Origin: Caldifarciminota bacterium
GTDB lineage: Bacteria; Hydrothermota; Hydrothermia; LBFQ01
NCBI GenBank assembly: GCA_015492295.1
Contig: WGFI01000059.1
Span: 1 to 52,375, forward strand
Direction: 5' to 3'
Length of the DNA: 52,375 nucleotides
Shown here piece by piece: positions 14,338-52,308 of the stretch. Under the pieces are notes generated by a model, which searched no databases, was not told the DNA's origin, and saw only the letters and a list, made by a program, of their open reading frames with translations. Every line of letters begins with the position of its first letter. Position 1 is the stretch's first letter. A program made the position numbers and the translations under genes.

Positions 14338-15696
14338 ATGCTCCTTATACCTAAGACGAGATTCACAAAGATACATTTTGTAGGCATAGGCGGTTCGGGA
14401 ATGAGCGGTTTGGCAGAGATATTGCATTTCTTAGGTTTTGAGATTCAAGGCTCCGATGTGGCCATTAAGGAAACTACTAAAAGGCTTGAAAGCCTGGGTA
14501 TTAAGGTATTCTACGGACATAAGGCTGAAAATATAAACGGCGCCCATCTAGTTGTATATTCCTCAGCTATAACACCCGATAATCCGGAGATAATCGCAGC
14601 GAAGGAGAAAGGGATACCGGTTATACACAGGGCTGAGATGCTTTCGGAGGTGATGAGAGTAAAGTTTTCCATAGTAATATCGGGATCGCATGGTAAAAGC
14701 ACCACGACATCCATGATAGGACATATACTGAAAAATGTTGGTAAAAAACCGACCATAATAGTTGGCGGCATTTTGAGGGATTCTGGATCCGGGAGTGTTA
14801 TGGGTTCAGGAGAATACTTGGTCGCGGAGGCGGATGAATCCGACAGGTCTTTTTTAAGGTTGCTACCTTCAATAGCGGTCATCACAAACATAGATAGGGA
14901 ACATATGGATACCTATAAGAGCATGGCTTCGTTGAAGATGGCTTTTATAAACTTCGCGAATAGCGTGCCTTTTTATGGCTCGGTGGTAATTTGCAAAGAT
15001 GATAAACATGCGAAGGATATAATCCCTTTCATTGAAAGGAGGTTATTCACTTATGGATTTAACATAGACAATGATGTCTTCGCGGATAATATAACTCTTA
15101 TCGGTTTGGGCAGCGAGTTTGAGGTTGTGGGTTTTAATCGTAGATATAAGGCGAAGTTATCCGTTCCCGGTAAGTTCAATATACTAAACGCCTTGGCATC
15201 ATTTACGGTCGCGTGGGAATTGGGAATATCGTTTAAGGATGCGATAGAGGCTTTGGAAGATTTCAAAGGGGTTGGCAGAAGATTTGAGATAAAGGGGGAG
15301 AAGCTTGGAGCCACTTTCGTTGATGATTACGGACATCATCCTACGGAAATTAGGAATGTTTTGGAATTTGCCAGAACCTTAAACAGGAGAATAATAACCG
15401 TTTTTCAGCCTCATAGATACACCAGAACTATGGATTTATACAAGGATTTCGCCGAAGTTCTGATGGAATCCGATCATGTCATTCTTCTACCTATATATCC
15501 GGCGGGTGAGAAACCTATAAGCGGAGTATCCACGATGCTTATATACAATGCTATGAAAGAGAGGGGTTATGATAATGTGGTTTTGGTTGATGATATGGAG
15601 GAGGCTGTGAATATATTGAGGAAGTTGATAAGGGAGGGTGATATGGTGCTTCTGCAAGGCGCAGGCAATGTGTATAAAATCTTTGATATGATATGA
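14338..15696 (+). CDS. murC: UDP-N-acetylmuramate--L-alanine ligase
   Basis: HFVGIGGSGMSGLAEIL, SGSHGKSTTTSMI, DDYGHHPTEIRN, FQPHRYTRT. Confidence 0.97.
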   Translation: MLLIPKTRFTKIHFVGIGGSGMSGLAEILHFLGFEIQGSDVAIKETTKRLESLGIKVFYGHKAENINGAHLVVYSSAITPDNPEIIAAKEKGIPVIHRAEMLSEVMRVKFSIVISGSHGKSTTTSMIGHILKNVGKKPTIIVGGILRDSGSGSVMGSGEYLVAEADESDRSFLRLLPSIAVITNIDREHMDTYKSMASLKMAFINFANSVPFYGSVVICKDDKHAKDIIPFIERRLFTYGFNIDNDVFADNITLIGLGSEFEVVGFNRRYKAKLSVPGKFNILNALASFTVAWELGISFKDAIEALEDFKGVGRRFEIKGEKLGATFVDDYGHHPTEIRNVLEFARTLNRRIITVFQPHRYTRTMDLYKDFAEVLMESDHVILLPIYPAGEKPISGVSTMLIYNAMKERGYDNVVLVDDMEEAVNILRKLIREGDMVLLQGAGNVYKIFDMI

Positions 15697-16460
15697 AAAA
15701 GGTTATGCTTCTTTTCCTGTTTATATGCTGCGGGGTTGATAATAAAGGGAAAATAGTATCTCTCGTTCCCTCTGCCGATGAGATCATAGATTTTCTCGGT
15801 GCGAAGGATGTACTCGCCGGCGTCTCAACATACAGTCCTTTGAAAGACGAAATAAGAGTCGTGGGGGATTTAATAAATCCGGATTATGAGGTCATATCAT
15901 CCCTTTCCCCTCAAATGGTAATAATAACCTTACCTATGCAGAAAAGGGTAAAGGAAAGACTTGAAGATATGGGTATAAAGACCTACGATTTTTCTCCTGA
16001 AAGCGTTGAGGAGTTAAAATCTGAAATACTGAACTTGGGAAAAATTTTGGGGAGAGAAAAGAAAGCGGATAAGCTCGCCGATAGTATAGATATGACCATT
16101 AAAACGATCTCTCCCATGCCCGAATTCACATTCGTGGTTGAAATATCGGATAAACCCGTTTATGTCGCAGGAAAGAACACTTATATATCGGAAATATTGG
16201 GGAGGTTTGGAGGAAAGAACGCTTTTTACGATATAAAAGGTTATAAACCCGTATCATCCGAGGATGTTATAAGCAGAAAATTTGATGTGATAATAGCACC
16301 CTATGATATAGGAAATCGCGTAGGTTTTGAAGGGGTTTGTAGAATCACATTGCCTCCCGATTATATGTCGCCGGGACTGAAAATTTTCGCTTTAATAGAC
16401 AGCTTAAAGTTTAACCTTATGCGCTGCTTTGAAGAAAACCTTGTCGGCTCTGTAAGATGA
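15693..16460 (+). CDS. periplasmic-binding lipoprotein (BtuF/FhuD-like)
   Basis: Short lipobox [41 protein letters not shown] fold signature. Confidence 0.8.
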
Positions 16461-23249: not shown

Positions 23250-23882
23250 CTATCTTATCTCATAGCAGCCTTTTATTTCAAGGGTCTGTTGCCAATTCTC
23301 AAACCATCCATCCGATACCCCTATGAATATAGCAACCGTATCGTTTATCAGAGAGGATGCACCGTTAAAAGAAACGGATACGGGTAAATTAAAGGAGTAG
23401 GATGAATCGGAGGGTGAAATCCAACCTATGAGATGATGTAAGGAGTTGGTTTTCCAACCCAAGTTCCTATAACTCGCTCCAATTGAAATCCTATTAACAT
23501 CGGAGAGGAGCAAGGTATCTTGATTTAAAACCTTAGGATCAAGTATTAGGATGTTCAGCATGGACATGTACTCTTCCATAAGCGAGTGGGATCTGAACTT
23601 TATATCAAAGTGTAAAGTATCTCCTGCGGACAGGAATATCTTTTTATAAATGCCTATTTTAACCGCGAATGACCCAGACTCTCCGTTTGAACATCTACCA
23701 TCTATCCCGCTTCCCTCCTTTATCCTCCATACACCCCCATAATACCTTGCCGAAAAGTTGGCATAGAATGGTAGAAATCCCCCACAATAATTGCAACCTG
23801 TTGCGCATGTGGGTATATATGCTGGCCTAAATGAAGTATCAATGGGTACGCATAGACTTATGATGAATACCATAACTTTCAC
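23250..23882 (-). CDS. hypothetical secreted protein
   Basis: N-terminal hydrophobic segment; ATGA overlap with the next minus gene. Confidence 0.55.
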   Translation of the reverse strand: MKVMVFIISLCVPIDTSFRPAYIPTCATGCNYCGGFLPFYANFSARYYGGVWRIKEGSGIDGRCSNGESGSFAVKIGIYKKIFLSAGDTLHFDIKFRSHSLMEEYMSMLNILILDPKVLNQDTLLLSDVNRISIGASYRNLGWKTNSLHHLIGWISPSDSSYSFNLPVSVSFNGASSLINDTVAIFIGVSDGWFENWQQTLEIKGCYEIR

Positions 23883-25123
23883 CTCCTTATAATCTTTAAA
23901 ATCTTTCCTCCGCGATAGACTTTGAAATACACACCCCTTCTCAAAGTGTCCTTTCCAACATATCTACCCGAAACATCCCATATACCTACGGGGATTTCAT
24001 CCTCGGAATGGGCATACTCAAACGCGCCCACCGGTGTGCAGCTATTATCAAATTTCCTTATAAGACCCATATACTTCTGGGCACTCAGAGTATGGAAGAA
24101 TCCCGCGATATAGACGAAACCGTACCGATCAATAGCCAAACCGCTACCTTGACTGAACCTTGGATTCCAGTTTGAGCCCAAATGATAATAGCACAGGACA
24201 TTTCCTCCAATCGTATCACGCTTATCAAGTCTGAGCCTCCAAGTGTAGGGAGCATCATCAAACCAACCTATAACCCATATATCTCGTCCATCAAAACCTA
24301 TCTCCCTCGTCATATCGGATACACCGTTCAAACCGTACTGCTGAAACCACCATCTTGCACCCGATGATGACCATTTTTCAATCCACCAGTTGAAATGACT
24401 ACTCCAATAGTATCCCACCGTATATGAATTTCCGTTGGATTGAGTAAATATATCGTATCCTTGATTGTTCGTAGAACTTCCCGAGCCGGATGGATTACTC
24501 CATATAACATTTCCTGAATCTGAAATTTTTTGCGTTTCCCATATCCAACCTGTACTATCATGATATTCAAGAACAGCGTAAATGTTTCCCGCTGAGTCCA
24601 AGGATAGAGACATATAGTAAGAGTTTTGCCCTGAGGAGTCTTGTTTTATATAGGATATGGTTGATAGGCTTATGGGCATCTTGTAAAGTGTCGCATGGTA
24701 TCTCGTACCTGCGTATTCGTATCCGGAGATATAAAGCGTGTCATTGAAAACATAGGCATCTTTAAAGTAGGATGGGGAGACGGGGTGGGAATAGGAGGTG
24801 AGGGAATCGCAAGTCTGGGATATTTTTAGAACGAACCCCTTATCGCTTAACGATGTGTCTGAAATGAAACCCACCAAGTAGAAGTTTCCGAAGGTATCCG
24901 TTATTACTCTATAAAACCAGACATCATAACCGTATAAAAATAACCTTTCGCATATAAGGGATCCGCTTGGGGAATATATGCCGAAACGGGAGCCGAATAT
25001 AGTATCATTCCATATAACTCCTATCGCTCCAACCAACCCATCCCTATTAACCTCAACATCCATCGTATATTGATCCCTATACTCATTCCATATAACGGGC
25101 CAGGCGGATGCTATCCAAATCAT
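23879..25123 (-). CDS. secreted propeller-like protein with C-terminal sorting module
   Basis: GIWDVSGRYVGKDTLRRGVYFKVYRGGKILKIIRR; ATG at 25123 preceded by GGAGGT. Confidence 0.7.
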   Translation of the reverse strand: MIWIASAWPVIWNEYRDQYTMDVEVNRDGLVGAIGVIWNDTIFGSRFGIYSPSGSLICERLFLYGYDVWFYRVITDTFGNFYLVGFISDTSLSDKGFVLKISQTCDSLTSYSHPVSPSYFKDAYVFNDTLYISGYEYAGTRYHATLYKMPISLSTISYIKQDSSGQNSYYMSLSLDSAGNIYAVLEYHDSTGWIWETQKISDSGNVIWSNPSGSGSSTNNQGYDIFTQSNGNSYTVGYYWSSHFNWWIEKWSSSGARWWFQQYGLNGVSDMTREIGFDGRDIWVIGWFDDAPYTWRLRLDKRDTIGGNVLCYYHLGSNWNPRFSQGSGLAIDRYGFVYIAGFFHTLSAQKYMGLIRKFDNSCTPVGAFEYAHSEDEIPVGIWDVSGRYVGKDTLRRGVYFKVYRGGKILKIIRR

Positions 25124-25125
25124 AT

Positions 25126-26562
25126 CTACCTCCTTATGACCTTCTTCCAACCCGATGGAGTTTTAACAAAGTATATACCCTTTTTCATCCTATTGACCCT
25201 CTTCCCTTCCACGGTGTATATATCCATCACCTCTTCAAAGGATTTGTACTCTTCTGAAACTTTAAGTCCCTCATCGTATCCAAGCGGACACAGTTCAACC
25301 TTGGTTAAACTCCGCGAAACGGCGGTTAAACTTACATTCGTTTGTGTAGGTGTATTGGAGTACATCACCATGGAAGGGGAAGCGACATTGGGGGTATATA
25401 CGGTGGTTAAAGGTGATAGGCTACTAGCCGCGCAGCTGGTATGTATGTTCCCCGCAGTATCGGTTTTCAATATAAATATACTGTTTGCACCCGTGTTTAT
25501 TAAAGAAACTATACCATCGCTACCCACGAGTTGCATGGCCACCCTTCTACCAAAACCGATGAATGTTCTCATCCATAGAACATTTCCGGTTATATCCATC
25601 CTCATCAGGTACTCCTGTCCCGAATAGCTACCGCTTACCCAGAAATCCGTTAGGACATTGTGTTGAACCAACCTATCACCTACGAAAGTTGAACCGAAGG
25701 ATCTAAACCAATCAACGAAACCGGAGGAGTTGGTTTTCATGACGAAGCCTTGCCAAGTTTCACTGCTACCCGTAAGAATCACACCTCCATCGGATGAAGG
25801 TGTGCAGGCATAGAAACCTTCCCTCCTGTAAGGATTTGAATAATATCTTTTTGCCCAGATGAGATTTCCAGAAGGATCAACCTTATATATAAGTCCATCC
25901 CACCAGTGTGTGTCGTTCCAATAAACCAGAGCGCAAAAGATGTAATTACCGTCGGGTAATCTATGAAGGACTCTTGGAAAACCGTACCCTGCATATGAAC
26001 CTTTTTCTATGGTGCGAAAGCTAACAAGGTTTCCCGAAGCATCAAGCCTCATAGTGAATATGCCGTAGTAAAATGTAGTAACCGGGAAAGGTTCATCAAC
26101 GACTCCATTCACGAGATAACCTCCACTGGATAGTTCAACCACCGATCTCGCGAATTCAACTCTCGTTCTGGAAAAACAAGTGACGCAATCCCCATTCGGG
26201 CCTCCGAATGCCCTCGCCCACTGGACATTACCAGAAGCGTCAGTTTTTATGATGAATATATCCCACTGTCCTGCTCCCCAACTGCGGGTTGATCCTCCGA
26301 TAACATAACCTCCGTCGGATGTTTGATATACGAAATCGCCCCAATCTTTATTCGGACCACCGTAAGTCTTTACCCACTGTATGTTCCCATAAGCGTCTGT
26401 TTTTAAAAGGAATATATCGTGCTGACCGGAGGATATCCAGGTTCCCACCACTGCATATCCACCATCGCTCGTTGATATTATCCATCTCCCATCAAGGGTA
26501 TCATTAACCCCAGCATCGTACCTGATGCCAAAGGTTATTGATAGTACAGCTAAGGTCATCAT
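25126..26562 (-). CDS. secreted repeat (delta-60/propeller-type) protein with sorting module
   Basis: Repeats GGPNKDWGDFVYQTSDGGYVIGGSTRSWGAGQWDIFIIKTDASGNVQWARAFGG; C-term MDIYTVEGKRVNRMKKGIYFVKTPSGWKKVIRR. Confidence 0.75.
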   Translation of the reverse strand: MMTLAVLSITFGIRYDAGVNDTLDGRWIISTSDGGYAVVGTWISSGQHDIFLLKTDAYGNIQWVKTYGGPNKDWGDFVYQTSDGGYVIGGSTRSWGAGQWDIFIIKTDASGNVQWARAFGGPNGDCVTCFSRTRVEFARSVVELSSGGYLVNGVVDEPFPVTTFYYGIFTMRLDASGNLVSFRTIEKGSYAGYGFPRVLHRLPDGNYIFCALVYWNDTHWWDGLIYKVDPSGNLIWAKRYYSNPYRREGFYACTPSSDGGVILTGSSETWQGFVMKTNSSGFVDWFRSFGSTFVGDRLVQHNVLTDFWVSGSYSGQEYLMRMDITGNVLWMRTFIGFGRRVAMQLVGSDGIVSLINTGANSIFILKTDTAGNIHTSCAASSLSPLTTVYTPNVASPSMVMYSNTPTQTNVSLTAVSRSLTKVELCPLGYDEGLKVSEEYKSFEEVMDIYTVEGKRVNRMKKGIYFVKTPSGWKKVIRR

Positions 26563-26606
26563 GATAAAGATATTCTAAATATGTTTCAATTTCGCATGCA
26601 GATTGG

Positions 26607-26625
26607 TTGCCAAGGTGTTTGGCAA
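26607..26625. promoter_or_regulatory. 19-bp palindrome TTGCCA-N7-TGGCAA (putative operator)
   Basis: ttgccaaggtgtttggcaa, upstream of the minus-strand 26562 start. Confidence 0.55.
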
Positions 26626-26636
26626 CATAGTCTTTA

Positions 26637-28229
26637 CTATTTATACACGACAACCTTTTTCACCTTTCCGTTCCCCTTAACAAAATAAACACCTTTTATT
26701 CTCTTAAACCCTTCAAATGGACCTTGATAAATGACCCTACCAGAAACATCATAAACCTTTACATTCGTATTCGGTGTTATCTCAACACTCTCATAAACAT
26801 CTATCAAACCGCATCCGCCTTCATTTGAAGTCGCGTCTATGGCGGCTACCTGATGGGTTCCTCCTCCCACAGCAACTATCTCTACACACCCATCACCATC
26901 TATATCCCCCACACTTATAGAGTTCAAAAAATTACCAGGTCTCACTTGCCACAAAAGCGTTCCATATGAGGATAAAACATAGATGGAAGAGTCCCCATGG
27001 GTTATAACCTCCATTCCAGAACTTGGGTCAATATCCGCTAAAACCACATCATTCATCCATATATAAGGGCTACCAACATAATAAGACCATAAAAGGGAGC
27101 CATCCGTCCCTTTAAGGGCATAGACATATCCATCCATACTACCCACAATAACCTCAACATTCCCATCATTGTTTATATCTCCTATCGTCGGAGAGGAAGA
27201 TATATCGCCACCCGTTTGATAGAACCATAACAGTGCACCATTCGTACCCCTAAGTGCATAAACCTTTCCATCCCTGCTTCCTACCACTACTTCAACTTTT
27301 CCATCTCCGTTTATATCCCCTATCGCAGGGGAAGATAACACCCAATCGCTTGGGGTAAAAGACCATAGCTTAATACCCCACCACAAAGCATAAACATTCC
27401 AATCCATATTCATGGTACCCACGACCACCTCCAAAAACCCTCCGTTGTTTAAATCTCCTATGGCAGGAGAGGAAAATACCCCACCTTGCGTCAAGTAATA
27501 CCACAATACAGAACCATTTGTACCCCTCAATACATAAACAGTGCTATCCGTATTTCTACCCATCAAATCAATGTATCCTCCACCTACAACTACTTCAATA
27601 TTACCGTCCCAGTTTATATCTCCTATCGCAGGTGAAGACAATACCTCGCCATTAGTTAAGAAAGTCCATAACATAGTACCATTTGTACCCCTTATGGCAT
27701 CCACCCTGCCATAATGAGTGGAATTATCACCAATACCCACAACTACTTCAATTAAACTATCATTGTTTATATCCCCTATTGCGGGGGAAGACCTTACAGG
27801 AGAATAACCTAGTTGGTAAGACCATAAAAGGGAACCATTTGTACCCCTTAAAGCATACACCTTGCCATTATAAATACTATCGCAATTAACACAACCCACA
27901 ACAACTTCAATGTTTCCATCATTGTTGATATCCCCTATGGCAGGAGAACCGGTTACATTACCGGTTGTTGTATAAGTCCATTTAATATATCTTCCCGATG
28001 TAAAGTTCCCCTTCATTCTTTGTCTTCCAGTATGATTCTGCGAACCGTTAAACATCTGCCAGGAACCCAATGCCCAGTCTGAAGGTGGAAGGCAGGTGGT
28101 TTGAAACCCACAGCTCTGAGCATTTGAAAAATCGGGTAGAAGAATCGGAATATATAGCGTTAAGCACACAAATATTCCATAGACTTTTACCTCCAAAACG
28201 CGCTTTATTGCTACTATTTTCCCTTTCAT
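26637..28229 (-). CDS. secreted FG-GAP/PQQ-like propeller protein with sorting module
   Basis: SSPAIGDINNDGNIEVVVGSxDGKVYALRGTNGSLLWSY repeats; C-term VKVYDVSGRVIYQGPFEGFKRIKGVYFVKGNGKVKKVVVYK. Confidence 0.85.
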   Translation of the reverse strand: MKGKIVAIKRVLEVKVYGIFVCLTLYIPILLPDFSNAQSCGFQTTCLPPSDWALGSWQMFNGSQNHTGRQRMKGNFTSGRYIKWTYTTTGNVTGSPAIGDINNDGNIEVVVGCVNCDSIYNGKVYALRGTNGSLLWSYQLGYSPVRSSPAIGDINNDSLIEVVVGIGDNSTHYGRVDAIRGTNGTMLWTFLTNGEVLSSPAIGDINWDGNIEVVVGGGYIDLMGRNTDSTVYVLRGTNGSVLWYYLTQGGVFSSPAIGDLNNGGFLEVVVGTMNMDWNVYALWWGIKLWSFTPSDWVLSSPAIGDINGDGKVEVVVGSRDGKVYALRGTNGALLWFYQTGGDISSSPTIGDINNDGNVEVIVGSMDGYVYALKGTDGSLLWSYYVGSPYIWMNDVVLADIDPSSGMEVITHGDSSIYVLSSYGTLLWQVRPGNFLNSISVGDIDGDGCVEIVAVGGGTHQVAAIDATSNEGGCGLIDVYESVEITPNTNVKVYDVSGRVIYQGPFEGFKRIKGVYFVKGNGKVKKVVVYK

Positions 28230-28260
28230 AATCTATATATTTTAATGTTGAAAAACTTTA

Positions 28261-29796
28261 TTAACGCACAATCACTTTTCTCACCTTCCCCTTACTCTCC
28301 GCAAAATAAATACCCTTTTCACCTTCAAACTCCTCAAACAAACCCTGATAAACCACCTTACCTGAAACATCATAAACTTTCACTTCCGTTTTCGGTGTTA
28401 TTTCCGCATTTTCGCCCACTGATAACTCGTCATCTGCACCAAGAACACCACATCCACCTTCGTTGGAAGTCGCGTCTATTACTCTGACCCAACTTTTACC
28501 AACTAGAACGATTTCTGCGCATCCATCACCGTCTACATCGCTTATATTAACACCCATAACACCTCTTGGAGAAACCCCAGACCAAAGTCTTGAACCACTA
28601 GAAGAAATTAAATATATATCGTATCCGAAACCCTCATGTGTAACTATTTCAAGACCGGGTGATGGATGGAGTTCGGCCGTAACTACATCAGGGTAATTCC
28701 CATACCAATATCCAACTCCACTAAACCTCCACACAAGAGAGCCATCGCTCCCTCTCAATACATACAAATATCCATCTCTACTTACAGTCATAATTTCCTT
28801 TGCACCATCACTATTTATATCCGCTACCGCTATTGAAGTTCCAATATCACCACCTGTCATATAAGACCATATAAGACTTCCATCTGTTCCTCTCAAAGCG
28901 TAAATTCTCCAATCTAAACTTCCTATAACCACCTCAACATTTCCATCGTTATTTATATCTTCTATAGTCGGAGAAACATCAACATCGGAGCCAGTAGTGA
29001 AACTCCAAATGAGGGTTCCATTTGTTCCTCTTAAAGCATAAACGTTATTGTCTTTACTACCTATTACGATTTCAATATTTCCATCGCTATTTATGTCTCC
29101 TATCGCGGGTGAGGAATATACTCCATTTCCCGTCGTGAAAGACCAAATTAAAGAACCATCCGTTCCTCGTAAGGCGTACACATTACCATCAGAGCTTCCT
29201 ACAACAACTTCTACATTCCCATCAAGATCTATATCGCCCACAGCAGGAGAAGATGCTACTGCGCTACCTGCACTATAAAACCACAATACGGATCCGTTGG
29301 TTCCCCGTAAAGCATATAATCTACCATTATTGCTCCCTATCACAACCTCAATATTACCGTCTCCATTTATATCGGCTATTAATGGAGAAGATGAAACACC
29401 TCCAGAAGAGAGAGAACCAATTGAACGTGACCAAAGAACAGCTCCATTTGTGCCTCTAAGAGCATATACTTTCCCTGTTCTATCTCCTACCACAACTTCA
29501 ATATTCCCATCGTTGTTTATATCTCCAACAGCCGGTTGTGAGGTTACATAGTTTGGGAAACCGGTACCCCATTTCCCATATATTCCTACCGAAAAATTCC
29601 CCCTCATCGCTTGCCTTCCCGTATGCTTCTGTGTTCCATAGAACATCTGCCAAGAAGCGTTGGCCCAGTCAGAAGGTGGAACGCAAGTCGTCTGGAATCC
29701 ACAACTCTGTGCGGTTGATACCTTTGGATATAGAGCAAAGAAACAAATTACCATAATCCCCCAGCAGATTTTTATATAACCTTTGATCCCTTTCAT
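28261..29796 (-). CDS. secreted FG-GAP/PQQ-like propeller protein, paralogue of 26637-28229
   Basis: Same repeats; mature N-term AQSCGFQTTCVPPSDWA; sorting module at C-term; start MKGIKGY at 29796. Confidence 0.85.
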   Translation of the reverse strand: MKGIKGYIKICWGIMVICFFALYPKVSTAQSCGFQTTCVPPSDWANASWQMFYGTQKHTGRQAMRGNFSVGIYGKWGTGFPNYVTSQPAVGDINNDGNIEVVVGDRTGKVYALRGTNGAVLWSRSIGSLSSGGVSSSPLIADINGDGNIEVVIGSNNGRLYALRGTNGSVLWFYSAGSAVASSPAVGDIDLDGNVEVVVGSSDGNVYALRGTDGSLIWSFTTGNGVYSSPAIGDINSDGNIEIVIGSKDNNVYALRGTNGTLIWSFTTGSDVDVSPTIEDINNDGNVEVVIGSLDWRIYALRGTDGSLIWSYMTGGDIGTSIAVADINSDGAKEIMTVSRDGYLYVLRGSDGSLVWRFSGVGYWYGNYPDVVTAELHPSPGLEIVTHEGFGYDIYLISSSGSRLWSGVSPRGVMGVNISDVDGDGCAEIVLVGKSWVRVIDATSNEGGCGVLGADDELSVGENAEITPKTEVKVYDVSGKVVYQGLFEEFEGEKGIYFAESKGKVRKVIVR

Positions 29797-29841
29797 AGCG
29801 TTAGTAATCCTATTCCTGAAACATGCTGATTTGTAACCTGG

Positions 29842-29860
29842 TTGCCAAGACCCGTGGCAA
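29842..29860. promoter_or_regulatory. 19-bp palindrome TTGCCA-N7-TGGCAA (putative operator)
   Basis: ttgccaagacccgtggcaa, upstream of the minus-strand 29796 start. Confidence 0.55.
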
Positions 29861-29861
29861 A

Positions 29862-31043
29862 TCATTTGAGGTATCTGATGAACAATTCTCTCAACTCCGG
29901 TTTATTTTTTAAAAAGTTTCCCCTTTCCACGCTCACCTTTAAGTCGGTTTTACAGTACGCGAGTCCCAAGTTCTCCAAGCGGGACATATACTCATAACAT
30001 CTTCTTCTTGGATCCCTTGATGTCGGGAAAATAAACTTAGCGTTATCTATAACGGCTTTCCTTGAACCGATTTTCATTAAGGCTAGGATGATTTTAGACT
30101 TCTCCATTCGCGGAAACCTGAATTTTTTACTGCCTTTGAACACTTCCAGATCGCTGAACCTGAGCCAATATCCTCCCGATGAAACCAGCATCAAATAATA
30201 AGATTGATGGTACAACCCTCTTAAAGGAGGAGTATCATTGCCGATGATGGTATAATATACCGACCTTAATACTGGCACATTTTCTATGGTTCTCCGGTAT
30301 ATTTTGAGCGTGTTTATGAAGTCCTTTCTTATCATACTTTGATAGATCAGCGCTTTTAAATAATTCAATCTATCTCCCGTTGATTCGCTAAGAACCTTGA
30401 TCTGCTCCAGACCCATTAGATCCCTCCTTAAAATGTATAAAATCATCGCGGATTGTAATCCCAATGGTAATATCCCCTTTTCCAGAAATAACGATGTGGC
30501 TCTCTCGTATATATTTATACTTTCCTCCACATTCCCTTCACCCAACAGATAGAAACCTCTCAACATCTCGGACAATAGAGCGTACAACTTGGGTACATCC
30601 TTAAATTTTGAGAATTCCTCATAATCAACCTTCTCCCCATTTAGGAGACGAATATTTAAATCTATTATTTCCTTTTCAAAACCTTTCAAATCTGAAACTT
30701 TCAATACCTTCTTGGCTTCTTTTGTAAATCCTAAATTTACCAGATAGGCCAGCTTTATATCGTTGGACACATAAGATAGAACCTTTTTAAATCCTTTAAG
30801 ATTGAGAGACTTTATATAACTCGCCGCAAGCATTTCGTAGGCACATGTAGGAATATAACCCTTATGTTTTTTGAATATCTTGATATAACGAATGACCCGA
30901 TTAAATCTTCCGAGTATGACACATGCGTTGAGCAATGTCCTTAGCGTTTCTTCACTTATATGCTCCTTAAAGGATCTTTCTAAAACATTTAAATCTATAT
31001 CTTCCTTAAAATCCAGAAAGACTTGTAAAATATCCTTGGACAT
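29862..31043 (-). CDS. hypothetical alpha-helical (TPR-like) protein
   Basis: Long helical ORF; TATAAT 7 nt upstream of ATG. Confidence 0.55.
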   Translation of the reverse strand: MSKDILQVFLDFKEDIDLNVLERSFKEHISEETLRTLLNACVILGRFNRVIRYIKIFKKHKGYIPTCAYEMLAASYIKSLNLKGFKKVLSYVSNDIKLAYLVNLGFTKEAKKVLKVSDLKGFEKEIIDLNIRLLNGEKVDYEEFSKFKDVPKLYALLSEMLRGFYLLGEGNVEESINIYERATSLFLEKGILPLGLQSAMILYILRRDLMGLEQIKVLSESTGDRLNYLKALIYQSMIRKDFINTLKIYRRTIENVPVLRSVYYTIIGNDTPPLRGLYHQSYYLMLVSSGGYWLRFSDLEVFKGSKKFRFPRMEKSKIILALMKIGSRKAVIDNAKFIFPTSRDPRRRCYEYMSRLENLGLAYCKTDLKVSVERGNFLKNKPELRELFIRYLK

Positions 31044-45953: not shown

Positions 45954-47378
45954 CTAACGCCGATATTTTAGATGTAGTGATATCGTTCTGTCCCTTATGG
46001 GATAACCTTCAACGAATTCATCCTCTCTATCCAAAAGGTTATCAACCTTTAAAACACATTCAAATTTTTTGATCTTCATCCTTAAAAACATACCCATCTG
46101 CAATACGAAATCAACGAATCTGGTATTTTCCTTGTTTGTAAATCTCGGATCAAGGTAAAGGGCGTACAAACCCATGAAACTGAGGTTAAAATTGATGAAA
46201 TACGAATTCTTAGGCCTATAAATCATCCTTTTGCCGTTATCATAATAAGCCCAAATCCTGTCATACTTGAACAGAAAATTTCCCTTTTTTATTTTCAAAC
46301 TCATACCCCAGATGTTCCCCGAGCCTTCATTGTAAGGTCTCCAAATACCGCTCACACTTTTCCACTCTATTATATTCCAAACTCTCCTGGCAAAACCCAT
46401 CAGATAGAAGACTCTATAAGATACTTCCGTAGATAAGAGTATGGAACTTTCATTTTTTAAATTGGGATTTCCCTCGGCACCCGCACCTTTCCAGTACAAC
46501 TCATCAAATGAAGGGATACGATTTGATAAGGTTGCCCTCACTATCAGCTTTCCATAAGCTAACAGCGAATAAAAGGAATAACCTAACCTTTTCAGATCAC
46601 TCCAAACATTCGCATTCAGACCTACGATACCCACACTGAAAGTTCTGGATGAGTATATTATAGGCCTTACATAAGTCCCTATATTCGTGCTTCTTACACC
46701 TTCAAGAATTATAAGATTTCTGAAACCCGATATTTCATAGGTTTCCGTTAAACGGAAGTTATCGTGAATGTAATCCCCGAATATATCATTCCACCTTCTA
46801 CGGAGAATTAAGAGCGAAATCCTCCCGACCTTTCCAGCCAATCTCATATCCGTTTGTATTCCCGATGTTTGGGGAAAACCTTTCATTCCGCTCGTTCTTT
46901 TTCGTGATACCCTCAAATCCCAAAATTGCCCCTCCTGTTTGAAAAAGCTCTCCAAAAAGATAATGGTGTCCCTTACACCGATCAAATTTCCTCCATCAAA
47001 ACCAGCGATATTCGTCTTATATCCTAAGGAAATTCCCCTGAATTGATTAACAAAAATATAACCCTCCTCAGCATCGTCATTTCTAATATCCAGATTTCCG
47101 TATATGGAATATGGCGTTATTCCCCCCTCAAATACGGTAATTCTGTTGAATAGAAATGGGGATATATCCGTAAGGTCCGCGTAGGAACTTTGAGGTTGAT
47201 TTATGAGTATTCCGTTGAGAAATAAGGCGTTTCCCTTCGGATGCCCTCCCTTTATGGATATACCTGATAGATCCGCGTAAGATCCATAAGTGTATCCGTA
47301 AATACCTGAGATGGATGAAGCTGACAACCAAATATCCGCATATTCTATATTTACGCTATCCCCGGGAGATGCCTCCAC
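45954..47378 (-). CDS. TonB-dependent receptor, BtuB-like (short, N-term uncertain)
   Basis: Plug-like ISIKGGHPKGNALFLNGILINQPQSSYADLTDISPFLFNRITVFEGG; barrel strands; in B12 riboswitch operon; frame continues upstream with ...FILPPITVEAS (TonB-box-like). Confidence 0.75.
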   Translation of the reverse strand: MEASPGDSVNIEYADIWLSASSISGIYGYTYGSYADLSGISIKGGHPKGNALFLNGILINQPQSSYADLTDISPFLFNRITVFEGGITPYSIYGNLDIRNDDAEEGYIFVNQFRGISLGYKTNIAGFDGGNLIGVRDTIIFLESFFKQEGQFWDLRVSRKRTSGMKGFPQTSGIQTDMRLAGKVGRISLLILRRRWNDIFGDYIHDNFRLTETYEISGFRNLIILEGVRSTNIGTYVRPIIYSSRTFSVGIVGLNANVWSDLKRLGYSFYSLLAYGKLIVRATLSNRIPSFDELYWKGAGAEGNPNLKNESSILLSTEVSYRVFYLMGFARRVWNIIEWKSVSGIWRPYNEGSGNIWGMSLKIKKGNFLFKYDRIWAYYDNGKRMIYRPKNSYFINFNLSFMGLYALYLDPRFTNKENTRFVDFVLQMGMFLRMKIKKFECVLKVDNLLDREDEFVEGYPIRDRTISLHLKYRR

Positions 47379-47401
47379 AGTTATCGGCGGCAGTATGAAA
47401 C

Positions 47402-48520
47402 TCAGCGTACTATCAACCTCCTGACCTTACCGTCTTCAACTATGAAATATACCCCTTTTGAGCGTATGCTATTGACCTTCCTTCCATCCAGTGAGTATAT
47501 CCCTCTCAACTTATTTTTCGTAATGATTTTCCTCTCAGAGGTGCTTAGGGTCGTTGGTGATAGGGTTATTGATATTGGACCTATATCAACCGTTGCAACA
47601 TGCTCAATTGAGTTTGTGGTCCTGTTATAGACTATTATGTTCCCGTTTGTGGTGTAGTCCATAGCCGCGGTGATAAACAGTCTGTCGTTGAAGATTTCAA
47701 CTTGGGAAAATCCATAGTATGTTACAAGAGGCAGGGGAACGAATATTCTGCTTGAATATATGAAATATCCGATCCAGGAATATCCCACCGCTATTACGGT
47801 ATCGGTTGATGGTATCCTACGAAGAAAACCTATGTTTGCGGGTGTTGAAATGCTGTCAATGACCCTAAGTGAGTCCGTTCTTATTATGTAGATCTTCTGC
47901 GTTGATGCGTCAAACCAATCCCCACCTGAAACTATCGCGGTATCCCCATCCATGAACTCCATATATAACATATTTATACCGAGTCGCAGCGAATCAAGGA
48001 CGATTCCGGTTGAGGTATCAATTTTATATATCGTTGAGGTATCGGTGGTATAAGAGTTCATATCATAACCCGTTGATATGGCGAATAAATATCCTCCTTT
48101 CATTCCTACATACTGGGGACTCCTCCATACACCAACGCTCCATATCTCGTTCTTCGTAGATAGATCGTACGAAACTATGCTGTCATAAAGCAAGAGGGAT
48201 ACGAATATCTTATTTCCCGATATGGATGCCATATATGGGTTGGAACTCGCGCCCGTGAATATGCTGTCAATCACAAAGGGTATATTATCATCCCGTAGGA
48301 TGTAGATTCTGTCGTTTCCCGAACTTATGGTATATAGGTACCCTGAGTTATACAGAACCTGATTGAGAGCCGAGCCATGGGGGGATACGTTGTTCCTCTG
48401 TTCAAAGGGAGAGGATACATTCATCAGGGATAGGGTGTTGGATATTGTATTGGCTACTACAACCCTTTGCCCGAAAGCATATAAAGGAAAGAAGATAAAA
48501 ATAAATATTCCCCTTTTCAT
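47402..48520 (-). CDS. secreted YncE/BtuG-like beta-propeller with C-terminal sorting module
   Basis: YVTN-like blades; signal MKRGIFIFIFFPLYAFG; C-term IYSLDGRKVNSIRSKGVYFIVEDGKVRRLIVR; SD CGGAGG. Confidence 0.75.
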   Translation of the reverse strand: MKRGIFIFIFFPLYAFGQRVVVANTISNTLSLMNVSSPFEQRNNVSPHGSALNQVLYNSGYLYTISSGNDRIYILRDDNIPFVIDSIFTGASSNPYMASISGNKIFVSLLLYDSIVSYDLSTKNEIWSVGVWRSPQYVGMKGGYLFAISTGYDMNSYTTDTSTIYKIDTSTGIVLDSLRLGINMLYMEFMDGDTAIVSGGDWFDASTQKIYIIRTDSLRVIDSISTPANIGFLRRIPSTDTVIAVGYSWIGYFIYSSRIFVPLPLVTYYGFSQVEIFNDRLFITAAMDYTTNGNIIVYNRTTNSIEHVATVDIGPISITLSPTTLSTSERKIITKNKLRGIYSLDGRKVNSIRSKGVYFIVEDGKVRRLIVR

Positions 48521-48590
48521 AGTTTTCAACCTCCGTTTGATTCCTATCTCTACCTCAGGGTGGCGAGCCCCGGCACCACCCTTGGAGGCG

Positions 48591-48739
48591 TACTCCGGGC
48601 AGGTCTTCCGGCTCGCGGGCCACCTACTCCCCCGGCCTTCCCATCCCTGTACGGGACAGTGGCCTTTTTGGGGTTTCGCTCCCGCTCACGGCCGCCGGGA
48701 CGGCTCCCGATTTTCACGGGATTCCCTCAACCCGGAGTA
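48591..48739 (-). ncRNA. class-I cobalamin (AdoCbl) riboswitch aptamer
   Basis: Minus strand: P1 TACTCCGGG/CCCGGAGTA (9 bp), GAGGGAATCCCGTGAAAATCGGGAGCCGTCCCGGC, GGCCACTGT, GGGAAGGCCGGGGGAGTAG, GAGCCGGAAGACCTGCC (B12 box). Confidence 0.95.
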
Positions 48740-48763
48740 GGATATTATAAGGGTGTAATATAT

Positions 48764-49153
48764 ATGTTCAGCCTTAGAATATCTTTGGTGAATAAGATAC
48801 TTGAAAAGGATCCTGTTCTCCGTAGAATCGTTGAAGTTATCGTTAAGGAGATAGACCCAGATAAGATAATCCTTTTCGGTTCAAGGGCGAGGGGGGATTA
48901 CAAAGAGGACAGCGATTACGATATTCTTGTGATTAAAGAAGGGGTTAGACCAGAAGAAAGGAGGCCGTTGCAGAGGAAAATAAGGAGGGCATTTTGGCGA
49001 GAGAGTATATATCCTTCTGTCGCTGTGGATGTGATAGTTCAGGATGCTGAGAGATTTAACAGATTAAAAAACGAGAAATATTTGGTATATTATTCTATAT
49101 CAAATGAGGGGATTGTAGTTTATGAGAAAGTTTTACGCAAAACTGTGGCTTGA
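48764..49153 (+). CDS. MNT-type nucleotidyltransferase (candidate antitoxin)
   Basis: IILFGSRARGDYKEDSDYDILVI; alternative leaderless GTG start at 48788 (TAGAAT 48775-48780). Confidence 0.88.
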   Translation: MFSLRISLVNKILEKDPVLRRIVEVIVKEIDPDKIILFGSRARGDYKEDSDYDILVIKEGVRPEERRPLQRKIRRAFWRESIYPSVAVDVIVQDAERFNRLKNEKYLVYYSISNEGIVVYEKVLRKTVA

Positions 49154-49511
49154 ATTTGCTGAGGAAGATCTGGAATCCTCGCGTGCACTTTGGGAAAGAG
49201 GTTTGATAAGAACCGCTGCATACCATCTACAACAGACTGCGGAGAAATCTTTAAAAGCTCTTTTGATACTTCAAGGCGTGGAAGTTCCAAGGACGCATGA
49301 TATAGACAAACTTATAAAATCTTTAAGTGATTTCTATGTGATCCCCAAAGATATTCAGGATGCGGTAAATCTGACGGAGTACGCCTTTACAACCCGTTAT
49401 CCTGATGATTATGTTCCCCTATCTGAAAAAGAATATGAGAAAGCGTATGAAACGGCGTTAAAGGTTTATAAATGGGCAAAGGGGATAATAGAAGGAACAG
49501 CCTTAGAATAA
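49122..49511 (+). CDS. HEPN-domain protein
   Basis: AAYHLQQTAEKSLKALLILQGVEVPRTHDIDKL; overlaps the MNT gene. Confidence 0.88.
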   Translation: MRKFYAKLWLEFAEEDLESSRALWERGLIRTAAYHLQQTAEKSLKALLILQGVEVPRTHDIDKLIKSLSDFYVIPKDIQDAVNLTEYAFTTRYPDDYVPLSEKEYEKAYETALKVYKWAKGIIEGTALE

Positions 49512-49516
49512 AGGTA

Positions 49517-49925
49517 ATGAAGGGAGGAAAGGAGATACTTGAAAGGGATCCGGTACTTCGCAGGATCGTTGAGGTAATTGTTAGGGAGATAGACCCGGAT
49601 AGGATCATCCTCTTTGGTTCAAGGGCGAGGGGAGATTACAAGGAAGACAGCGATTACGATATTCTTGTGATTAAAGAAGGGGTTATGCCTGAGGAGAGGA
49701 GAAACCTAGCGACCACTTTGGAAATGGCTTTTTTGGAAACCAAAATATTCCGCTATGCAAGTTATAAAAAACCCAGCAAAAAGGGGGCTTGGATTCGCTT
49801 TGAAGGATAAGACTATGGCCGATGCGGGATAGATCTTACGGCTTATCATCTTCAACACTCGTGGGGAAAAGTTTAAAAAAAAGCGATTATTATGTCTTTT
49901 ACGATTTGAGGGTGCCGAGTAGGGA
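49517..49925 (+). pseudogene. decayed tandem copy of the MNT-HEPN module
   Basis: MNT N-terminus intact (GSRARGDYKEDSDYDILVIKEG), then divergence; downstream cttggattcgcttt...ctatggccgatgcgg...gcttatcatcttcaa parallels the HEPN start with frameshifts and stops. Confidence 0.65.
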
Positions 49926-50142: not shown

Positions 50143-52308
50143 ATGCTTGCCAGTGTGGGAGATAACGATATCGTTGAACCTATGAATGAAAGGTGTGGCA
50201 TTAATGGAAGTCCGTGTTGTATAGATACCACAAGCGATGGAGGCGAGCTTGGGGATCCAAAACTTCCAGCGAGCTTCTGTTATTCCGGAATCTGCGTCAT
50301 AGACAGCCTCCATCCGTTCCCCGGTATATGCATGGGTGGCGATGGTGGGGGTGGAGGAGATGACGGTGGAGGTAGCGGTGGTGGATACCCTGGCGGAGGA
50401 TACGATGATGTATCAAGGCCCTGCCTTCCTACGATTATATGGAAGGATGTATGCGACGACGATACTGTGGGTTTGTTTTGGGATGGTAACGATGAGATAG
50501 CGGATCCAAGCAGGCCCGTGGTTCTTCTCGTTCATGGGACGAAGAACGATTGTAGAACTTGGCAAGATTATTATGGGTATTTAAAGAATGATGGTTTCCG
50601 CATAGCTGTTGTGAATCTCTATCCTTCAAACCACGATGCGGATGCGAAGGGATGCAGGTTCAGGGGGCCTATGTTTGAACCCAACGGGCAACTGTTGGAC
50701 TTTTTAATAGATACGCTGTACAGTTTCCTTGTGAATAACTATCCATCTGGTTGGAACAACGATATAGTCATAGTGGCTCATAGCAGAGGCGCTTTGGAAA
50801 GTGAGGTGGCTATATATAAATATGGTAATACGCATGTAAGGAGGGTTGTAACCATAGGTGGCCCATTTTTTGGATCAAAGCTTGCGGATGTATGTTCAAG
50901 TCCGAGCGATATAGAGATAAATTGCGATGTTTTTCCTATATGGTCCCGTGAATATTGGGAATGCCAGTCTATAAAAACGATTTTAGAGACTTTTAATATA
51001 ACCGTAGGAAATGTATGCGCGTACTTTACGACCCCAGATGTATGGAGGTTATCAACGGACGCCGTGATACCCTACCGAAGTAATTATATAGACCCATATA
51101 TGACTTACAGGTCCGTGAATTATTATGTTGGGATAGGTTGGACTCCCCATTGGTCATGCGGACCTTTTCCCGGAAAATCGCAAGCAGGTTGTCTTTTACT
51201 GAGATACGGCTTATGGCAAGGTTGCAACGATGGAACCGTTGAATATTCAAGCACTTCAAGGAGGGCTTCCTATCCGAACACCTGCTTTATTTCCACGAGG
51301 GCAGTTTCCCAGAATCCGTTTCCTTGGTCATGCGGTGGGGATCCTAGCTATTGGGAAAAGGATCACACTTCAAGTAAGAACGATGTAGAGATTTATAATA
51401 GATATGTTAAAAGGGCAATTTTGGGCAACTGTCCAACTCTATATCAGGTCTCGGACAGCACAGAACCTATGGATATACCCATAACTTCACCTAAGGAATC
51501 CGGGAGCAATATGTTTATCGTGGGGGTGGAGGGGAGTTTATACCTCCCTATATCGTCGGAGACGGACAGTATCATAGTTATATCCCCTTATCCTCTGAAT
51601 ATCATGTATGCTTCAAGGGTTAGGGAGTTTGACATTGAAGGTTTGTATGGATATATAGTATCTCCTCAATCCACGGGAGCGAACATACTGTTGGCAAGGA
51701 AGAGCGATGAATTTTCTACGGACGAGTACGATTTTACCCCCGTTATGGTATTTTATCCGAGTCCTCATTTGGCTAAGGTTAAGTTTAATAAGAGGATGTA
51801 CCTTGAAGGTGATGTGATAAGGATAGATTTCGTTTATCCATTGGCGGACAGCGTGAAAGGAAGCTATTTCAGGATAGGCGATCCTAACAGCATAAAATTC
51901 ATCACATTCAGAGAGATAAACGATACATTCAAGGCGTATGTAAGGATACCTTTCAGGGGTGTTTATAGATTCGTTTTCACCACATTCGGCAGAGAACCGA
52001 GAACCATAATGGAAAATGTTTGGGTTGTTCCGAGTTATGATACGGATGCTCTTATGTCTTTTATAAGCGATATGGAATATGGAAGGTTTGGGATTCCGAA
52101 GAGATCCGTAGGATCAAGGCAGAGGCTACTTTATGGAGGAGAAGTGATAAACATAGGATTGAGGGGAAATTATAGGATATACGATGTGAAGGGGAGTCTC
52201 GTTCTTAGAGGATACACGGGAGATGGTAGGATAGATATAAGAAGGCTTCCGAGGGGTATATATTTCGTCGTTATAAGGGGTAAAATATTTAAGGTGGTTA
52301 GGAGATGA
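50143..52308 (+). CDS. secreted alpha/beta-hydrolase (lipase-like) with sorting module; 5' part out of frame with ATG 50031 in this sequence
   Basis: VVLLVHGTKNDCRTWQDYYGYL, IVIVAHSRGALESE (GxSxG); C-term YRIYDVKGSLVLRGYTGDGRIDIRRLPRGIYFVVIRGKIFKVVRR; frame open from 50047. Confidence 0.85.
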   Translation: MLASVGDNDIVEPMNERCGINGSPCCIDTTSDGGELGDPKLPASFCYSGICVIDSLHPFPGICMGGDGGGGGDDGGGSGGGYPGGGYDDVSRPCLPTIIWKDVCDDDTVGLFWDGNDEIADPSRPVVLLVHGTKNDCRTWQDYYGYLKNDGFRIAVVNLYPSNHDADAKGCRFRGPMFEPNGQLLDFLIDTLYSFLVNNYPSGWNNDIVIVAHSRGALESEVAIYKYGNTHVRRVVTIGGPFFGSKLADVCSSPSDIEINCDVFPIWSREYWECQSIKTILETFNITVGNVCAYFTTPDVWRLSTDAVIPYRSNYIDPYMTYRSVNYYVGIGWTPHWSCGPFPGKSQAGCLLLRYGLWQGCNDGTVEYSSTSRRASYPNTCFISTRAVSQNPFPWSCGGDPSYWEKDHTSSKNDVEIYNRYVKRAILGNCPTLYQVSDSTEPMDIPITSPKESGSNMFIVGVEGSLYLPISSETDSIIVISPYPLNIMYASRVREFDIEGLYGYIVSPQSTGANILLARKSDEFSTDEYDFTPVMVFYPSPHLAKVKFNKRMYLEGDVIRIDFVYPLADSVKGSYFRIGDPNSIKFITFREINDTFKAYVRIPFRGVYRFVFTTFGREPRTIMENVWVVPSYDTDALMSFISDMEYGRFGIPKRSVGSRQRLLYGGEVINIGLRGNYRIYDVKGSLVLRGYTGDGRIDIRRLPRGIYFVVIRGKIFKVVRR

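Follow-up and report, generated by a model that had tools for sequence, protein, structure and literature searches.

A riboswitch-led locus of a WOR-3 bacterium probably encodes a B12 capture operon with a BtuG-like propeller bearing a T9SS-like tail and a BtuB-like receptor

The stretch of DNA analyzed here (the window, 52,375 nucleotides) is one contig, C59, of the 1.96 Mb, 90% complete MAG of a heat-loving uncultured bacterium that is WOR-3 / Caldipriscus-like; Caldipriscus is placed in Candidatus Caldipriscota by NCBI. The minus strand of the window carries a cobalamin riboswitch followed by the gene for a secreted β-propeller and by that for a TonB-dependent receptor (Table 1). The span that a sequence-only reading had singled out, 47402-48745, takes in the riboswitch and the propeller, but the receptor falls outside it. 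A gene pair divergent to the riboswitch (48560-49810, plus strand) encodes an MNT nucleotidyltransferase and a HEPN-like protein, and part of the nucleotidyltransferase sequence is duplicated at 49472-49810.

Table 1. Features of the locus, and one further candidate uptake gene, by position in the window.
Feature	Position	Strand	Basis or remark
Predicted class-I cobalamin riboswitch aptamer (RF00174)	48581..48750	-	cmscan
P13 hairpin, AGGGUGGUG-CCGGGGCU-CGCCACCCU	48557..48582	-	folding; pairing kept in relatives
Shine-Dalgarno GGAGG of the propeller gene	48530..48534	-	sequence; 9 nt before ATG 48520
BtuG-like β-propeller with T9SS-like C-terminal tail, 372 aa	47402..48520	-	AlphaFold2, Foldseek, riboswitch linkage
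Signal peptide MKRGIFIFIFFPLYAFGQ, signal-peptidase-I type, no lipobox cysteine	48467..48520	-	sequence
C-terminal sorting-domain-like tail, residues ~325-372, GIYSLDGRKV...KGVYFIV...KVRRLIVR	47402..47548	-	
Shine-Dalgarno AGGAGG of the receptor, within the 3' end of the propeller gene	47417..47422	-	sequence
BtuB-like TonB-dependent receptor	45954..47408	-	Plug, profile, model; start uncertain
BtuF-like periplasmic binding lipoprotein	15693..16460	+	PF01497, E 3.4e-20; not riboswitch-linked

As a prediction, the identity of the leader is certain: cmscan aligns it with the full length of the RF00174 model (model positions 1-189) at 112.1 bits, against a gathering threshold of 31.5, and with an E-value of 2.3e-27. 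Both points of the sequence-only reading, class-I cobalamin riboswitch hallmarks on this strand and a perfect 9-bp P1, hold, the P1 arms UACUCCGGG (48739-48731) and CCCGGAGUA (48599-48591) forming nine perfect pairs on the minus strand. The loop of the P13 hairpin, GCCGGG (48574-48569), is complementary to the CCCGGC of L5 (48699-48694), giving the L5-L13 kissing loop. Within its 39-nt context, the hairpin has a folding energy of -20.3 kcal/mol, a value that only 5 of 200 shuffles equal or better, and its stem differs in sequence across the eight genomes of the family to which the window belongs (f1) with pairing kept. The L5/L13 words are CCCGGC/GCCGGG in f1 and covary in the sister family f2, where they read CCTAGCA/TGCTAGG in G009, and CCCAGCA in L5 with TGCTGGG in the hairpin loop in G011. 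In the window, no T run follows the hairpin on its 3' side, and the 3' arm extends into the ribosome-binding site in several relatives; for these two reasons, the riboswitch would more likely control translation than termination. The window copy is the sole cobalamin riboswitch found by a search of the host genome, and exactly one was found in 47 of the 59 other relatives searched.

The propeller open reading frame spans 48529 to 47402 with ATG 48520 as its likely start, so that the protein earlier read as 375 residues long probably has 372, while its description as a secreted propeller behind the riboswitch stands. As a single sequence it retrieved no meaningful family from Pfam, NCBIfam or phmmer, and an initial search of the genome contigs with the single protein returned nothing, so alignments were needed. 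When an AlphaFold2 model based on eight family sequences (pLDDT 84.6, pTM 0.78) was compared with the PDB using Foldseek, structures of BtuG1, BtuG2 and BtuG3 filled 15 of the 17 top places (E 2e-13 to 1e-11; TM(target) 0.74-0.80), which bears out the proposed likeness to BtuG; the other two places are held by an archaeal surface-layer propeller, which ranked first, and a designed propeller. The family profile (A1) also aligns with the riboswitch-linked lipoprotein propellers of WOR-3 (hhalign 99.8%, E 1e-27, 285 columns), a profile made from the lipoprotein propellers only scores the window propeller at 111 bits, and the lipoprotein profile matches the BtuG1, BtuG2 and BtuG3 structures (E 2e-12 to 2e-7) and, more weakly, YncE (3e-4). 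Direct hhalign comparison of the propeller family profile with BtuG2 gave no match. The riboswitch directly precedes the propeller in all eight f1 genomes. A BtuG-like assignment is thus supported by the structure search, by the profiles through the riboswitch-linked lipoproteins and by the position of the riboswitch; we write BtuG-like rather than BtuG because the protein has neither a lipobox cysteine nor a lipoprotein export signal.

The aromatic contacts of BtuG2 with B12 are Trp194, Tyr239, Trp272, Tyr316 and Tyr335 (PMC10404256). In an alignment, the family members shown have aromatic residues at the positions of Tyr239 and Tyr335, and the positions of Trp194, Trp272 and Tyr316 are either not kept or not alignable in the propeller family. 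With just two of the five aromatic positions kept, we only infer that the propeller binds B12. Family f1 also has a lipoprotein propeller (SCIERFEVVE...LTTLSPELWY; L137, L138, L139, L141 and L143), encoded at a distance from the riboswitch. This paralogue was considered as the real BtuG and rejected, as the flanks fetched contain no receptor gene and it lies away from the sole riboswitch.

The signal peptide of the propeller has counterparts at the same place in relatives (VSLFAQ, VPAFAQ and LPLFAE), and each of the eight f1 propellers combines a leader of the signal-peptidase-I type, free of a lipobox, with a tail of the pattern GxYDVSGRRV...RGVYFV...KVRKV. The tail falls below the cut-offs of TIGR04183 and PF18962 in the window propeller and its seven orthologues, is short and of lower confidence in the AlphaFold2 model, and has the gingipain R2 CTD as its best, albeit weak, sequence match in the PDB (E 0.2-0.6). 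However, a tail-only profile matches unrelated secreted ORFs of the host genome at their extreme C-termini down to E 2e-8, including four within the window (E 2e-8 to 3e-6), and some of the proteins sharing the tail pass TIGR04183, for example a 531-aa frame ending near window position 26646; the genome holds 74 TIGR04183 matches at E <= 0.001. The T9SS-like sorting module that had been read at the end of the propeller is real, though below the curated T9SS models. The host genome also encodes SprA (1844 aa, 361 bits in total), PorV (156 bits versus a cut-off of 90) and a PorU-like protein (308 bits, under the cut-off of 420). Because the tail is common to other cargo and these components are encoded, the propeller is likely to be exported by the T9SS. 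Within the window, a T9SS-type tail was seen on a 721-aa secreted α/β-hydrolase-like protein (50143-52308, plus strand; TIGR04183 E 0.001), and closely similar tails of this type end each of four tandem secreted ORFs of ~420-545 aa (23879-29895, minus strand).

The gene after the propeller had been taken for a BtuB-like TonB-dependent receptor, and this reading is upheld by a Plug domain (PF07715) above its cut-off (25 bits versus 23.9) and by a profile made with riboswitch-linked relatives (A3), for which the nine PDB sequences at E <= 0.01 are all BtuB (best E 2.5e-21), namely Bacteroides BtuB3 and BtuB2 and E. coli BtuB. The top Foldseek match of the receptor model (pLDDT 67.5, the barrel being better than the plug) is E. 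coli BtuB (1nqe), and together the profile matches and the model support the assignment. The receptor reaches 17.7 bits against the TIGR01779 equivalog, a proteobacterial-type model with a cut-off of 599.7, and is for that reason called BtuB-like.

Candidate starts of the receptor are ACG 47408 and CTG 47405, the first GTG standing at 47378. Upstream of the TonB box, the receptor frame contains no ATG, GTG or TTG in G000 and G001 (L031); the ACG codon is conserved in both, 8 nt after a perfect AGGAGG, and coding conservation begins at that codon, with synonymous changes at L, S, F and P. The receptor frame is -1 relative to that of the propeller, and a fusion of the two by frameshifting was considered and rejected. 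The absence of a slippery site and the presence of AGGAGG ahead of the coding conservation instead lead us to prefer re-initiation at a rare start codon as the way in which the receptor would be translated. No more than ~13 residues precede the TonB box, so that a normal signal peptide is not possible; in receptors of related families, too, the hydrophobic leader is very short or missing. The receptor adjoins the propeller in only two of the eight f1 genomes, and the orthologous receptor of the sister genus g2 is encoded elsewhere.

Throughout f1, the tail-bearing propeller comes first behind the riboswitch, and in g2 the propeller is the only one of these genes directly behind it, the genes that come next being unrelated or divergent in most g2 genomes. 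The order in f2 is receptor, tail-bearing protein of another family and then, in G009 and G011, a tail-bearing propeller. Behind the riboswitch, the Bacteroides-like arrangement of receptor and then lipoprotein propeller is found in some 15 other genomes from the class and in two from the phylum, and in f3 and f9 receptor, BtuF and BtuC stand there without a propeller. Since other families of the class have the arrangement of BtuB with a lipoprotein, the T9SS tag most likely took the place of the lipid anchor in family f1. The earlier suggestion of an alternative mode of anchoring is strengthened by the lipid-anchored propellers of sister families and by the T9SS machinery, but is weakened by the tail lying below curated cut-offs. 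According to profile scores, the f2 propeller is no closer to the f1 propeller than the lipoprotein propellers are, and the tag may therefore have been gained twice, in f1 and in f2. The T9SS-tailed protein of 361-381 aa encoded after the receptor in riboswitch-linked loci (L038 and L039 in G009 and G011, L071 in G008) has no match in Pfam and carries the motif DGQWYGQ...SLDVLSLGxFGFI...FENxFI. The f2 CTD proteins of 361 and 381 aa were considered as propellers, and profile comparison placed them in a different family; possibly, they are another B12-binding accessory.

Two TonB copies are encoded in the host genome, as are two methylmalonyl-CoA mutase large subunits and a B12-binding subunit, so that energy coupling and a need for B12 are both provided. 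It also encodes two Peripla_BP_2 proteins, of which one is the BtuF-like lipoprotein of the window (Table 1), and this protein could possibly serve the next uptake step. Only one FecCD permease was found in the genome, adjoining another receptor.

We compared the locus with BtuG/BtuB of Bacteroides (BtuG2, 3DSM/8BAI; BtuB2G2, 8BMX; BtuB3G3, 8P97; PMC6143338, PMC10404256). Both have a cobalamin riboswitch leader, an adjacent BtuB-like receptor gene, and a YncE-like propeller of the same fold that is predicted to lie outside the outer membrane. They differ in phylum (WOR-3 / Caldipriscota here), in gene order (the propeller gene is first here), in targeting (a signal-peptidase-I leader and a T9SS-like tail here, a lipobox and a lipoprotein export signal there), and in sequence, the window family having no direct match to BtuG2. 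The lipoprotein propeller loci of WOR-3 (G013, G018, G020, G030 and others) likewise combine a homologous propeller and receptor with one riboswitch, but have a lipobox cysteine, no CTD, and the receptor gene first. With T9SS type A cargo (TIGR04183 / PF18962), the propeller shares a Sec signal peptide, the tail pattern and the presence of the machinery in the genome, whereas it differs in having a short tail that scores under the curated cut-offs. The DUF4465 (BtuJ) and BtuH lipoproteins, some of which occur outside Bacteroidetes, are also accessory cobamide binders in riboswitch loci (PMC13398666, PMC8941943), but differ from the window propeller in fold, and no such Pfam match was found here. 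A survey of 313 human gut genomes described BtuG homologues as exclusive to Bacteroidetes (PMC6143338), and receptors with a lipoprotein cap have been described as seemingly restricted to that phylum (PMC10404256). Neither a T9SS-tagged BtuG nor B12 uptake in WOR-3 was the subject of any paper turned up by our literature search, whose coverage was incomplete.

We consider it probable that the locus is an operon for the capture and uptake of B12 (cobamides), consisting of the riboswitch, a T9SS-anchored BtuG-like propeller and a BtuB-like receptor. When intracellular cobalamin is scarce, the riboswitch would allow translation; the propeller would then take the Sec route and, by virtue of its C-terminal tail, cross the outer membrane by way of the type IX secretion system, to be attached at the cell surface by a PorU-type sortase. 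Cobamides would bind to it there and be handed to the BtuB-like receptor, which would import them in a TonB-dependent manner. In this scheme, the T9SS tag stands in for the N-terminal lipid anchor that riboswitch-linked BtuG-like proteins have in sister families and in Bacteroides. Several observations count against the operon: the fold is common among propellers and the best Foldseek match is the archaeal surface-layer propeller; the tail lies below TIGR04183/PF18962, the direct profile comparison with BtuG2 fails, and only two of five aromatic contacts are kept; propeller and receptor are encoded apart in g2, and the receptor has no standard start or normal signal peptide; and the single FecCD permease found is beside a different receptor.

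T9SS cargo may be released as well as attached, and a propeller that has no lipid anchor might be a diffusible, hemophore-like B12 binder that carries its load back to the BtuB-like receptor; the separation of the two genes in g2 means that a fixed 1:1 lid is not required. Release nevertheless seems unlikely to us, given that a PorU-type sortase is encoded, that in open habitats diffusion would carry a free binder away, and that the homologous BtuG of Bacteroides is a lid fixed on BtuB (PMC10404256). We are similarly doubtful of the larger proposal that BtuG-type capture extends beyond Bacteroidota and that one WOR-3 family has turned it into an untethered, T9SS-secreted 'cobalophore' made only when B12 is scarce.

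It is more improbable still that the propeller is a YncE-like protein of some other role (a binder of another tetrapyrrole, or structural) that came under riboswitch control incidentally. The fold is common, the B12-contact residues are only partly kept, and the same family has propeller lipoproteins unlinked to the riboswitch; however, riboswitch linkage in eight of eight family genomes, the same linkage of homologous lipoproteins in many other families, and the crowding of BtuG structures at the top of the Foldseek list all argue for a role in B12 capture. A periplasmic propeller that passes B12 to an inner-membrane transporter, its tail being no T9SS signal, would fit the short, less confidently modeled tail that fails TIGR04183 and PF18962 in the window protein, but has an equally slim chance, since the same tail ends ORFs that pass TIGR04183, such as the 531-aa frame, and BtuF-like proteins are already present for the periplasmic step.

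Read as an operon for surface capture and import, the locus suggests that B12 capture by BtuG-like proteins is not limited to Bacteroidetes and that there is more than one way to tether such proteins. By this comparison, riboswitch-linked BtuB/BtuG-like pairs occur across the WOR-3 group, and within one order surface targeting appears to shift from a lipid anchor to a T9SS-like tag. This shift would constitute a natural test of how far the 'pedal-bin' mechanism depends on an N-terminal lipid hinge, and the findings suggest that scavenging of B12 is under selection in these uncultured bacteria.
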